Assembly: GCF_014836425.1 (NCBI RefSeq)
Contig: NZ_JACSQW010000001.1
Span: forward strand, 62,001-126,000
Reading direction: 5' to 3'
Length of the DNA: 64,000 bases
From: Limosilactobacillus avistercoris
GTDB lineage: Bacteria > Bacillota > Bacilli > Lactobacillales > Lactobacillaceae
Positions 56,977 to 60,156 of this stretch are shown here, in pieces (within the stretch, counting starts at the first letter, position 1; every line of letters begins with the position of its first letter). The notes under the pieces were generated by a model that made no database searches, was not told the DNA's origin, and saw only the letters and a list, made by a program, of their open reading frames with translations. The position numbers and the translations under genes were made by a program.

Positions 56977-57152
56977 AATTTTATCCGTTCCTTTCCAAAG
57001 ATTGCTGTTCTATTCTAGCATATTTAATAAATTGGTGGATTTTGTAACTATAGCTAAATCTTTTAATTTTACCATTGTTTTTCTACATCTAGTTATAGTA
57101 GAATGATTGTGAAATGATAATCAATAATTAAAATACGAGGAAGTGACAAAAC

Positions 57153-57719
57153 TTGAAAATTGCTGCAATTGCCGGGTCAAACGCTAACCGTTCCTATAAT
57201 CGGATGTTATTAGAGTTTATGGCTCAACACTTTAAGGATCAAGATCAGATTGATGTGATTGATATTCGTCCTGTACCAATGTTTAGCGAAAACTTCAAGG
57301 GGGATGCTCCAGAAGTAATCAAGGACATCGATCGGCGAATCAAAGCGGCTGATGCTGTCATCATTGCTAGTCCAGAGTACAACCACTCAATTACGTCAGC
57401 ATTGAAGAGTGTCGTTGAATGGTTATCCTACAATGTCCACCCTCTTGCTGGTAAACCAGTAATGACAATTGGTGCGTCCAAGCTTGACCAGGGTGCTTCA
57501 CGATCACAAGTGCAATTGCGTGATATCCTGATCTCACCAGGAATCAACGCCCTTGTATACCAAGGTGACGAATTCTTCATGAGTAACGTTACTGATTTAA
57601 TGGACGAAGAAGGGAACATCACGGATCAAGGAACAATTGGTTTCCTTGAAAAGTGCATGAAGGGATTCCGCTACTACGCTAAAGCAATCAACCAAATGGA
57701 AAAGGAGATGGCTGAATAA
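57153..57719 (+). CDS. NADPH-dependent FMN reductase-type protein 1 of the flavin cassette
   Basis: A 188-residue flavodoxin-like FMN_red protein. The FMN phosphate loop is AGSNANRSYNRMLLEF near the start, and SPEYNHSITSALKSVVEWL (about residues 72-90) is the second FMN contact. The start is TTG 57153 with ACGAGGAAG upstream. The stop overlaps the next start (TAATG). It opens a three-gene unit with a second reductase fused to a flavin-acceptor tail, and with ApbE, so it probably feeds electrons from NAD(P)H to bound flavin. The exact donor and acceptor are unknown. Confidence 0.9.
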   Translation: MKIAAIAGSNANRSYNRMLLEFMAQHFKDQDQIDVIDIRPVPMFSENFKGDAPEVIKDIDRRIKAADAVIIASPEYNHSITSALKSVVEWLSYNVHPLAGKPVMTIGASKLDQGASRSQVQLRDILISPGINALVYQGDEFFMSNVTDLMDEEGNITDQGTIGFLEKCMKGFRYYAKAINQMEKEMAE

Positions 57720-58960
57720 TGATGAAGATTCTTGCCTTTGCCGGAACCGACGCCGATTTTTCATATAACCGACTATTACTCCGCTTCATGAAGAAGCATT
57801 TTAAGCAAATGGCTGATATCGAGATCTATGAAGTCGGTAAGTTGCCACCATTTAGTGTTGATACCCCATTATCAGAACAAACTGAGGTCTGGAAGTTAAA
57901 ACAAAAAGTTAAGGAAGCTGATGGACTTGTCTTTGCTACCCCAGAATATGACCACGGAATTCCTGCTGTCCTAAAGTCAGCGATGGAATGGCTCTCTTAC
58001 CGGACAAAGGTCTTATCTGATAAGCCAGCGATGATCGTTGGGGTTGCTTATGGTCGTCAAGCATCCGCTCGTTCTCAAGTTCAAATGCGGCAGATCTTGA
58101 TTTCACCTGACTGCAATACTAACCTTTTGCCAGGGAACGAAGTCTTGATTGGGAACGTCCGCAATACTTTTGCCAAAGATGGTCGTTTAATTGATCAAAA
58201 GGCCATCGATCAATTGGAAAAGAGTTTTGAACACTTTATCGAATATATCCAAATCTTTAAGAACGTAGAAAGGGAGGGGCTTAACATGGCCGTTAAACAA
58301 CCAACGATCAGTGATGCATACATTAATTTCCCTACTGGTCGTTTAACACTAAAGGAAGTTCAACAGATTTTCAGTACAATCCCATTTGAAATTGACTTGA
58401 TTGATAGCACTGACCACTTTGCATGGTACTCAGATAAGCCAAACCGGGAACACGTTCGGAATACTGCTTCTCTCGGTGAAACTGTCCAAGAATGTCATCC
58501 ACCAATGGCTGTACCAGCAGTTATGAGCATTATCAATAGCTTCCGTGAAGGGAAGAAGGATGTTGTGACTCGGCCATTATGGATGAATGGTCACCGTTCA
58601 TTAATCCAATACTACGCATTACGGGACATCAATGGTCACTACTTAGGAACAATTGAATTTACTGGTAATGTTGAATACATCTTGAACCTCTTTGAAAACG
58701 GTGCTTGGAGCAAGGATGCTACTACTGGTGCATCTAAGCATGATGATAATGAAGAAGCTGCCGAAGAAGAAATGGCCGTTGATGCATCAACTGGTGCTTC
58801 CGAAAGCGACGACGAAGAAGAAAGCCAATCATCAGCAAGTGATGTTGAAGAAGCAAGCGAAGATGTAGACGCATCAACTGGCACTTCTGAAACTGGCAGT
58901 GTTGATGCCGAAGACGAAACTGCTGATGCTTCTACCGGGGCTTCAGAAGCCGATGACTAA
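57719..58960 (+). CDS. FMN reductase fused to PAS-like domain and a four-site flavinylation tail
   Basis: A 413-residue protein. Residues 1-180 are a second FMN_red domain (AGTDADFSYNRLLLRF, TPEYDHGIPAVLKSAMEWL). Residues about 195-325 match the DUF438/PAS-like fold, with the CHPP motif at 259-262 and YYALRDINGHYLGTIEFTGN. The tail (331-413) is rich in Asp, Glu and Ser and holds four copies of the ApbE target D-x-x-T-G-x-S: DATTGAS at 333-339, DASTGAS at 355-361, DASTGTS at 384-390 and DASTGAS at 403-409. FMN would be joined to the last Ser of each. No signal peptide is present. An internal ATG at 58286 (Met190) has AGGGAGGGG nine bases upstream and would give a 224-residue PAS-plus-tail protein. 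ApbE follows, overlapping by eight bases. Confidence 0.88.
   Translation: MMKILAFAGTDADFSYNRLLLRFMKKHFKQMADIEIYEVGKLPPFSVDTPLSEQTEVWKLKQKVKEADGLVFATPEYDHGIPAVLKSAMEWLSYRTKVLSDKPAMIVGVAYGRQASARSQVQMRQILISPDCNTNLLPGNEVLIGNVRNTFAKDGRLIDQKAIDQLEKSFEHFIEYIQIFKNVEREGLNMAVKQPTISDAYINFPTGRLTLKEVQQIFSTIPFEIDLIDSTDHFAWYSDKPNREHVRNTASLGETVQECHPPMAVPAVMSIINSFREGKKDVVTRPLWMNGHRSLIQYYALRDINGHYLGTIEFTGNVEYILNLFENGAWSKDATTGASKHDDNEEAAEEEMAVDASTGASESDDEEESQSSASDVEEASEDVDASTGTSETGSVDAEDETADASTGASEADD
58272..58288 (+). promoter_or_regulatory. Strong internal ribosome binding site and ATG inside the fused gene
   Basis: GGGAGGGG precedes ATG 58286-58288 at good spacing and in frame with the long reading frame. 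It lies exactly at the boundary between the reductase and PAS-like domains. It suggests two products, the full fusion and the tail-bearing PAS protein alone, or a recent fusion of two genes. Confidence 0.75.
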
Positions 58961-59879
58961 TAATTTAACCCAACAACGTCATTCGTTGGTCCATCATGCG
59001 TTAGGAACGAAGATCGTCTTAACGCTTTTTGGCGATCGCTTTTACCCATTATTATCGCGATCAATGCGCTTGATTGACGAGTATGAAGATCGGTTGACGG
59101 TTAACCGTCCTCAATCAGAAGTGATGGATATTAACCACGCTGCTGGTCGGGAAGCAAAGATGGTGTCGCCATCGACCTACGAATTGATTAAATTAGCTGT
59201 GAAGTATAGTCGGGAAAACTTCGGCTTTAATGCCTTAATTGGTCCACTGGTGAAGCTGTGGAAGATTGGTTTCCAAGGAGCGCATATCCCAAGCGACAAG
59301 GAGATCCAAGAACGCTTAGCATTAATCGATCCTTATAAGGTAATTCTCGACGATGACTACCGGACTGTATTCTTGGAAGAACCGGGGATGGAACTCGATC
59401 TTGGGGGAATTGCTAAAGGTTACATTGCTGATCGGATCCGTGACTTCTGGCTCAAACAGGGCGTTGAAGCTGGGATTATTAACCTTGGTGGGAACCTCCT
59501 CTTTGTTGGCAAGTCACCTCGGCGTGCGGACGGTCAGTGGGTTATTGGAGTTCAGGATCCCCAATTGAGTCGAGGTGAAGATCTCGAAATCGTCCGGAAA
59601 CCAGCGTGTTCAGCGGTTACCTCCGGGATTTATGAACGCTACCTGGAAGTCAACGGGAAGAAGTACCACCACTTATTAGATCCGCGGACCGGTTATCCAC
59701 TAGAAACGGACCTTTCCAGTGTGACCGTGTTTACCGAACAGTCGGTAATGGGTGAAATCGAAGCCAAGCGGTTATTCTTCAATGGGCGACCGATTCCTGA
59801 CTGGGAACAGCAACCCGGAAACCTGGGAGCAGTGTTTGTTAAACAAGATGAACAGGTCATTAACGTAAATAATGGTTAA
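58953..59879 (+). CDS. apbE: ApbE-type FAD:protein FMN transferase, cytosolic form
   Basis: A 308-residue flavin transferase that moves FMN from FAD to a Thr or Ser in its target motif. Features are MELDLGGIAKGYIADRI (147-163), INLGGNLLFVG, SAVTSGIYERY and HHLLDPRTGYPLETDLSSVT (239-258). No signal peptide or lipobox is present, so it acts in the cytosol, unlike secreted ApbE. The frame continues upstream to 58899, but ATG 58953 starts within the end of the preceding gene, giving an 8-base overlap. The Mg-binding D-x3-T of many ApbE proteins is not seen near 264-275, where the text reads SVMGEIEAKRLFFNG. Its target is very probably the four motifs encoded just upstream. Confidence 0.92.
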   Translation: MTNNLTQQRHSLVHHALGTKIVLTLFGDRFYPLLSRSMRLIDEYEDRLTVNRPQSEVMDINHAAGREAKMVSPSTYELIKLAVKYSRENFGFNALIGPLVKLWKIGFQGAHIPSDKEIQERLALIDPYKVILDDDYRTVFLEEPGMELDLGGIAKGYIADRIRDFWLKQGVEAGIINLGGNLLFVGKSPRRADGQWVIGVQDPQLSRGEDLEIVRKPACSAVTSGIYERYLEVNGKKYHHLLDPRTGYPLETDLSSVTVFTEQSVMGEIEAKRLFFNGRPIPDWEQQPGNLGAVFVKQDEQVINVNNG

Positions 59880-59924
59880 TTGAATTTAAATTAGCGATTG
59901 CTAAATGACGCCAGATGTAATATG

Positions 59925-60156
59925 ATAATGGCGAAGATAAAACACGGTTGCATTTCAAGTAGATCATCTAGAGAAGCGGCGGTTGGTGAAAGCCGTTGAT
60001 CGAAACTCCGGTGCAGAAAAATGTGGGCGGGTAATGCCGCACGGTTGATGGCCGTTATCCATCGCGAGGGTGACGTTGAATAGCGTCAAACTTGGGTGGT
60101 ACCGCGGAACTTAGAGCCATTTCGTCCCAAAATATTTTGAGGATGGAATGGCTCTT
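59925..60156 (+). promoter_or_regulatory. T-box riboswitch of serS
   Basis: The leader has the stem I landmarks (AGAGAAGC, GGTTGGTGAAAGCC), a possible Ser specifier TCC at 60007-60009, and the T-box GGGTGGTACCGCG at 60095-60107. The terminator is GAGCCATT / AATGGCTC with T run at 60114-60156. Uncharged tRNA-Ser pairing to the T-box should prevent termination. The specifier position is judged by eye. Confidence 0.92.

Follow-up and report, generated by a model that had tools for sequence, protein, structure and literature searches.

Organization of the FMN_red/ApbE locus

We analyzed a 64,000-nucleotide stretch of the Limosilactobacillus avistercoris genome (contig NZ_JACSQW010000001.1, positions 62,001 to 126,000 of the forward strand; referred to below as the window). 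It contains a three-gene locus for a putative multi-flavinylated redox system: FMN_red-A, FMN_red-B with a PAS_10 domain and a motif-bearing tail, and ApbE (flavin adenine dinucleotide [FAD]:protein flavin mononucleotide [FMN] transferase). The genes lie head to tail on the forward strand and overlap by 1 base (FMN_red-A/FMN_red-B) and 8 bases (FMN_red-B/ApbE). An earlier sequence-only reading had recognized that the three genes overlap and proposed a soluble carrier with up to four covalent FMN groups on a flexible arm. The genome comprises 1.80 Mb (G000; locus on contig C11), and the nearest named relatives among the matches listed include L. vaginalis (88% identity) and L. portuensis (87%). 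The features of the locus are as follows.

57153-57719, +: FMN_red-A, FRedA-like NADH:FMN reductase subunit (188 amino acids, TTG start; Pfam FMN_red, 9.8e-34)
57719-58960, +: FMN_red-B with PAS_10 and putative flavinylation tail (413 amino acids; Pfam, alignment and AlphaFold)
57722-58156, +: FMN_red domain of FMN_red-B, residues 2-146 (Pfam PF03358, 2.2e-32)
58361-58669, +: PAS_10 domain (PF13596), residues 215-317 (Pfam, 1.9e-14)
58712-58957, +: acidic tail predicted to be disordered, residues 332-413 (AlphaFold predicted local distance difference test [pLDDT] < 50)
58715-58735, +: motif 1, DATTGAS, exact match in the FMN_red-B tail
58781-58801, +: motif 2, DASTGAS, exact match in the FMN_red-B tail
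58868-58888, +: motif 3, DASTGTS, exact match in the FMN_red-B tail
58925-58945, +: motif 4, DASTGAS, exact match in the FMN_red-B tail
58953-59879, +: ApbE, leaderless and predicted to be cytosolic (308 amino acids; Pfam ApbE, 1.4e-69)

Foldseek comparisons of FMN_red-B (AlphaFold model based on 18 aligned sequences; whole-model mean pLDDT, 71.7) revealed a resemblance of its FMN_red domain to 1rtt (TM-score by target, 0.87) and of its PAS_10 domain to 2qkp and 3cax. The middle domain had been described as DUF438/PAS-like; the PAS part of that description holds, while the DUF438 label had to be dropped, since PAS_10 was the only Pfam match between FMN_red and the tail at E values up to 1. All 18 aligned proteins have His260 of PAS_10 (codon 58496-58498). 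Pfam matched neither an output domain nor an FMN_bind domain in this protein. The ApbE frame ends at 59879 and likely starts with the ATG at 58953; its best match in the PDB is the FAD:protein FMN transferase 7esa (3e-57), and it is the sole ApbE match genome-wide (E <= 0.001). The proposed absence of an export signal is borne out, as no hydrophobic leader was found: the maximal 19-residue Kyte-Doolittle mean within the first 40 residues was 0.95.

The four tail motifs are exact matches at the positions where they were first noted. When the 85-residue tail was shuffled 200,000 times, the pattern of the sequence-only reading gave a mean of 0.057 matches per shuffle and a maximum of three, versus the four observed matches; the motifs are not a product of chance tail composition. 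Elsewhere in the window, the stop-to-stop frames of at least 120 amino acids (19,454 amino acids) held two lone pattern matches, DVKTGNT and DVQSGST. A tight DNA motif pattern matched five times on the forward strand of the whole genome, four of these matches being the tail motifs, and a reversed control gave none. Lactococcus FMN_reds with one to two such motifs undergo ApbE-dependent flavinylation, and their flavin is covalently bound in Escherichia coli in dependence on the site Ser/Thr (Huang 2024, PMC11334425). Covalent flavinylation of the FMN_red-B tail is very likely. The idea of an NAD(P)H-FMN reductase followed by a flexible arm with ApbE-type sites is supported by the retention of the motif between freely varying linkers in the genus and by the flavinylation of related FMN_reds.

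Motif conservation and distribution of the system

FMN_red-B with PAS and tail was matched in 45 of 50 Limosilactobacillus genomes (E <= 1e-20), near full length in 35. Motifs were counted in 34 of these 35 frames (G026 omitted; TSAS also accepted), which represent 33 distinct proteins with five (n = 1), four (n = 25), three (n = 6) or two (n = 1) motifs. The mean pairwise identity among them was 84% in the motif columns, 35% in the linkers and 67% in the stretch ahead of the first motif. Motif positions 1, 4, 5 and 7 were D, T, G and S in 125, 124, 123 and 125 of 125 motifs, respectively, and these conserved residues are encoded by mixed synonymous codons. The motif is thus kept while its number varies, and, as the motif columns are far better preserved than the linkers, the tail is not one that persists while its motifs decay.

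In nine other members of the genus, FMN_red-B has a diverged or missing PAS domain and tail repeats like D-T-D-A-S-A-S and D-A-D-A-G-A-S; ApbE is adjacent in five of these and located elsewhere in the genome in four. ASAS or AGAS repeats replace TGAS at loci L032-L040 and L185, some beside their own ApbE. A possible explanation for such tails is a co-change of ApbE specificity with the target motif. In several members of the genus (L032, L033, L038, L284 and L285), the ApbE or FMN_red genes have as a neighbor a cysteine-desulfurase-like gene of the class V aminotransferases, assigned by Pfam for L033 only.

Beyond the genus, we inspected the best 80 named loci of at least 564 confirmed matches to the protein in Bacilli. 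These loci span numerous lactobacilli along with Enterococcus, Tetragenococcus, Vagococcus, Alkalibacterium, Oceanobacillus, Gracilibacillus and others. A second FMN_red is adjacent in all 80, the motif is present in 79 (S accepted for G), and ApbE lies inside the fetched stretch in 57 and no more than 1.5 kb away in 55. The 80th locus (L185) carries D-A-D-A-S-A-S-type repeats instead, together with its own ApbE. Among 398 Bacilli genomes, 105 matched the profile at E <= 1e-40, many via FMN_red alone; the best-scoring 28 FMN_red-PAS loci (L291-L318) all carry the motif (some in relaxed form), and 25 are flanked by ApbE. A Streptococcaceae sample gave matches in 34 of 59 genomes at E <= 1e-30, partly via single domains. 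Here, group g191 (probably Lactococcus) has short FMN_reds of 202 to 288 amino acids with one DADTGA[ST], an adjacent ApbE and no PAS match; those at L327 and L328 have DADTGST. The FMN_red-PAS form is present besides the short FMN_reds in the g191 genomes G751 and G771.

Two further occurrences were observed. A contig titled as a Bifidobacteriaceae metagenome-assembled genome (L172:7926-9862, +) carries an FMN_red pair with 56% identity, PAS and a motif tail, which reflects either horizontal transfer or a misbinned contig. At L092:51-1229 (+), an FMN_red without a PAS match has ten motif-like sites (strict and relaxed) with YSSDLD repeats between them. A phage origin was also considered; of 22 viral-contig stretches with a pattern match, none encodes a relative, so no such origin is indicated.

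Occurrence of the tail on other cytosolic proteins

The tight DNA pattern was found in 49 of 201 Lactobacillaceae genomes, compared to 7 for the reversed control. ApbE was present in 44 of the 49 motif-positive genomes versus 77 of the 152 others (Fisher P = 5e-7, which is not a clean probability because the genomes are related). In the five motif-positive genomes lacking ApbE (G055, G066, G164, G229 and G240), no motif lay in a redox-protein tail; the matches fell into surface-type or other proteins or into no reading frame. Among the ApbE-positive genomes, of which a subset was inspected, chance matches occurred too (L085, L086 and L100, without a reading frame, and L359).

In the Lactobacillaceae sample, the tail also occurs on stand-alone PAS_10 proteins; at L063 and L068, the tailed PAS_10 gene lies one gene from an FAD synthetase gene, followed by ApbE. 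A tailed pyruvate oxidase was found in four of six genomes of group g24 (presumably Furfurilactobacillus), namely, G108, G163, G186 and G208, which scored 859.8, 696.4, 863.9 and 620.4 bits with TIGR02720 (cutoff, 637.85); the proteins of G163 and G208 end at the locus edge, and hence partial sequences were scored. In G221 (g11), an untailed pyruvate oxidase gene precedes a PAS-tail gene and ApbE, with an AraC-type gene between. In G183, an FAD_binding_2 enzyme scoring under the flavocytochrome c cutoff ends with DANSGAS and DASTGAS.

A further tailed protein of 132 to 134 amino acids was matched in 47 of 50 genus genomes; its best 30 loci show DASTGAS (n = 29) or DASTSAS (n = 1) near the C terminus. 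It had no Pfam or NCBIfam match above the cutoff, and the best E value of a sequence-profile search for PDB homologs was 0.13. The top Foldseek match of its AlphaFold model was 9a4q_B (ODPA-YNER; 3.2e-10; TM by target, 0.88; 33% identity), and the model thus indicates a YneR-like fold. In Bacillus subtilis, YneR/PdhI binds and inhibits the E1 component of pyruvate dehydrogenase (PMC10090944). The L. avistercoris genome encodes two such PdhI-like proteins and a free PAS_10 protein with a relaxed motif (DGVSSAS). Together with FMN_red-B, this makes up to four candidate substrates for its one ApbE. The genome also has a pyruvate dehydrogenase E1 alpha (422 bits with TIGR03181 [cutoff, 411]) and an E1 beta-like gene that scored under the cutoff. 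The tailed proteins are located as follows.

L106:5781-7676, -; L348:1908-3806, -; L083; L084: pyruvate oxidase with a two- or three-motif tail, g24
L105:6194-6595, +: PdhI-like protein 1 of the L. avistercoris genome, C-terminal DASTGAS (fold search)
L281:2877-3314, -: PdhI-like protein 2 of the L. avistercoris genome, C-terminal DAITSAS (relaxed; 43% similarity-based assignment)
L349:510-887, +: PdhI-like protein with DTVTGAS in genome G009, which has no ApbE match

With the last of these, from a genome that is 93% complete, a strict pairing of motif and ApbE had to be rejected.

Comparison with known systems

The characteristics of the FMN_red substrates studied by Huang et al. (FMN_red domain, C-terminal motif extension and neighboring apbE; PMC11334425) are all found here. 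Those substrates differ in having one to two motifs, as opposed to four, and were modeled as a dimer of one FMN_red; the parts of that paper drawn upon mention neither a PAS domain nor a second FMN_red subunit nor an acceptor in the cytosol. The second relevant body of work concerns Lactobacillus johnsonii, in which FRedA and FRedB form an NADH-oxidizing heterodimer affected by LjPAS; PAS-FMN_red fusions in other lactic acid bacteria were noted in the same study (Valladares 2015, PMC4500961). Two adjacent FMN_reds and a PAS_10 protein are likewise present at our locus, but here PAS is fused, four motifs are added and ApbE is part of the operon. The main text of the 2015 paper contains no occurrence of "ApbE" or "covalent."

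Direct comparison supported this relationship. FMN_red-A shares 43% identity with its FRedA-like counterpart at L286 (presumably of the johnsonii/gasseri group), and the FMN_red part of FMN_red-B shares 48% with the FRedB-like protein of the same locus. The two FMN reductases named in the sequence-only reading are thus both confirmed as domains but are best read as one heterodimer. FMN_red-B also aligns with the free PAS protein encoded at L287 (3e-16; 26% identity). In G085 (presumably of the same group), ApbE lies two genes past the FMN_red pair and is 59% identical to the window ApbE, and a free PAS protein encoded elsewhere in that genome has three motifs (DATTGAT, DTATGAS and DTSSGAS).

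Three other systems share single aspects. HcrAB of L. plantarum is also a heterodimer, in which a COG0431 partner joins an NADH-dependent reductase with its own COG0431 (PMC10295242); there, donor and reductase modules share one chain, whereas the donor at our locus is separate and has PAS and a tail. The Klebsiella system of cytosolic ApbE and soluble fumarate reductase (PMC12052999) resembles ours in its leaderless ApbE and cytosolic redox target, but the target there is the reductase itself and not a tail on an NADH-side protein. Several covalent FMNs per protein, as predicted here, are known from multi-flavinylated proteins (Meheust 2021, PMC8238504); those have more than one FMN-binding domain and are discussed as extracytosolic, in contrast to bare motifs in a disordered tail. 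The family described here thus differs from known kinds in its larger number of sites, its PAS spacer and its heterodimer. In the open-access literature searched, no paper connects the FRedA/B-PAS system to ApbE or to covalent flavin, and no flavinylated pyruvate oxidase or PdhI is described. The initial impression of a combination without a described counterpart therefore needs qualification: both halves are published, by Huang et al. and Valladares et al., in two apparently unconnected bodies of work that the window locus joins, while their union was not found in that literature.

Association with fumarate-reductase-type enzymes

Among the best 80 loci, 15 have a fumarate-reductase-type gene that is either fused to the system or no more than about 8 kb away. 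In G061, the genes are arranged codirectionally as fumC-frdA-FMN_red-A-FMN_red-B-PAS-tail, and in G016 and G012 the FMN_red pair is divergent from fumC-frdA-DASS. Fusions were found in G318 (presumably Secundilactobacillus collinoides; FMN_red-PAS_10-tail-FMN_bind-FAD_binding_2) and in G212 and G221 (FMN_red-FAD_binding_2-FMN_bind). Ten Companilactobacillus loci show a divergent FAD_binding_2-FMN_bind gene beside the FMN_red pair, and a vinyl phenol reductase gene (NF053717; cutoff, 600) lies upstream at L184 (796.5 bits) and L163 (812.3 bits).

The L. avistercoris genome has a fumC-frdA-DASS operon on contig C33. Its FrdA is 61.6% identical to FrdA of the G061 set, matches FAD_binding_2 over most of its length (1.2e-86) and scores 616 bits as flavocytochrome c (cutoff, 542). 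It aligns with Shewanella fumarate reductase (6e-100) over residues 124 to 570 of the Shewanella chain, and the histidine and arginine residues that we take to form the active site were aligned by eye with that enzyme. Pfam found no FMN_bind match. Lacking FMN_bind and aligning only past the first 123 residues of the flavocytochrome c, this FrdA would need an outside electron donor.

Proposed function and alternative explanations

The best-supported reading, in which we place middling confidence, is that the locus encodes a soluble cytosolic NADH dehydrogenase with a multi-flavin arm that passes electrons to fumarate-reductase-type enzymes. FMN_red-A and the FMN_red domain of FMN_red-B would pair as a heterodimer and take hydride from NADH on noncovalent FMN. 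At up to four D-A-x-T-G-[AT]-S sites of the tail, ApbE would attach FMN to the final Ser, and the tail FMNs would accept electrons from the heterodimer and transfer them to separate cytosolic flavoenzymes, with PAS_10 probably docking or gating the arm on the heterodimer. The main acceptors would be stand-alone fumarate-reductase-type enzymes (FAD_binding_2, flavocytochrome c family) without a donor domain of their own, the candidate in the L. avistercoris genome being FrdA of contig C33. From our analysis, this reading draws on the anatomy of the locus, the motif conservation, the single ApbE and the operon and fusion links in relatives. Covalent flavinylation (PMC11334425) as well as heterodimer formation and NADH oxidation (PMC4500961) were established by others on relatives; flavinylation of FMN_red-B itself, electron transfer along its tail, the acceptor and the role of PAS are inferred. 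The electron supply of soluble lactobacillar enzymes of the fumarate, cinnamate and vinylphenol reductase types is known only in part.

Several observations weigh against this reading. No fumarate-reductase-type gene is seen in the fetched stretch of 65 of the 80 loci, and the independent cases are few because 11 of the 15 positive loci belong to Companilactobacillus. The L. avistercoris frdA is not adjacent to the FMN_red cluster, so that the link is circumstantial for this genome itself, and the co-occurrence of both in the genus is uninformative, as frdA (48 of 50 genomes) and the FMN_red system (45 of 50) are nearly universal. Many of the neighboring reductases carry their own FMN_bind domain and may not need an arm, and G009 retains a motif on its PdhI-like protein without an ApbE match. 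Finally, the L. johnsonii pair has O2-reducing activity in vitro, and hydrogen peroxide (H2O2) output in vivo depends on it (PMC4500961); O2 could hence be the acceptor.

This last point leads to an alternative that we consider unlikely, namely, an H2O2-forming NADH oxidase with O2 as the true acceptor, in which the tail flavins react with O2 and PAS tunes the rate to oxygen. The window genes are, by sequence comparison, relatives of the FRedA/B and PAS genes; that heterodimeric NADH oxidase is required for H2O2 production, and LjPAS slows the formation of the active FRedA/B complex (PMC4500961). However, the L. johnsonii assays used proteins produced in E. coli, and ApbE goes unmentioned in the main text (PMC4500961), so that the assayed proteins probably lacked covalent flavins. 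Nor would an NADH oxidase explain why operons and fusions connect the reductase with fumarate-reductase-type enzymes. Free reduced flavin reacts with O2 anyway, and an arm should be unnecessary for that reaction. If the tail is flavinylated, the earlier in vitro work on the L. johnsonii NADH oxidase and PAS used an incomplete enzyme, and the H2O2 output may stem from a side reaction in what is an electron carrier.

More doubtful is an anchoring function, in which tethered FMN folds back into the FMN_red pocket, extra motifs raise the odds of occupancy and no carrier role exists. Such an arrangement is suggested by the Lactococcus FMN_red models, which place the extension sites near a conserved flavin pocket, by the proposal in the same study of evolution from a noncovalent flavoprotein (PMC11334425), and by the absence of flavin from separately purified FRedA and FRedB (PMC4500961). 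In FMN_red-B, though, the sites are set apart from the pocket by the PAS domain and by as many as about 75 residues of disordered chain, and the tail occurs where there is no FMN_red pocket at all, on stand-alone PAS_10, pyruvate oxidase, PdhI-like and fumarate-reductase-type proteins. A redox sensor with PAS as the working part and covalent flavins reporting the redox state, i.e., a regulator and not an electron carrier, is very improbable: the invariant His of PAS_10 and the oxygen-responsive expression of LjPAS and its effect on FRedA/B (PMC4500961) would fit, but the lack of a Pfam-matched output domain, the variation from two to five sites across the genus and the tails on FMN_reds without a PAS match (L092, with ten sites, and G005) would not.

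The apparent portability of the tail across unrelated cytosolic enzymes, as judged from sequence, is new here and is the part likely to surprise specialists. Building on the proposed NADH dehydrogenase, we tentatively suggest a wider function, which as a whole has less in its favor: the short, disordered D-A-x-T-G-A-S tail may be a portable flavinylation tag by which cytosolic ApbE ties several soluble enzymes together in a common electron relay that, in the cytosol of fermentative Bacilli, takes the place of ferredoxin or quinone pools. The FMN_red-A/B-PAS complex (from NADH) and the tailed pyruvate oxidase would act as donors, free PAS-tail proteins as mobile carriers and tailed or tail-fused fumarate-reductase-type enzymes as sinks, while tailed PdhI-like proteins would link pyruvate dehydrogenase to the pool's redox state. 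If true, electron routing in the cytosol by way of a portable flavin tag shared among pyruvate oxidase, PAS carriers, fumarate-reductase-type enzymes and PdhI-like proteins would be a mechanism so far unrecognized.

Flanking sequence elements

ApbE is followed by serS (assigned by eye), ahead of which a T-box-like leader (GGTGGTACCGCG) was recognized by eye at 59900-60140; a search of the whole window with Rfam, including this leader, gave no match that reached the gathering score. On the other side, the upstream neighbor of FMN_red-A is an RNA-methyltransferase-like gene on the opposite strand (by eye). A weak sigma-70-like match at 57107-57134 is no evidence in itself, since four such matches were found versus 6.4 expected from shuffles. 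Rex- and Fur-like sites were considered, and the conserved TGTGA block fits neither well by eye. One candidate element emerged when the region upstream of FMN_red-A in the window was aligned with those of 18 Limosilactobacillus loci.

57094-57124, +: candidate promoter/operator, TATAGTAGAAT box, then TTGTGAAAT; TATAGTAaAAT / TGTGAAATGTTGCATAA block (upstream alignment)

Both blocks are kept in most rows, with the exception of L170 and L008, and the conserved block upstream of FMN_red-A is possibly a redox or catabolite operator.

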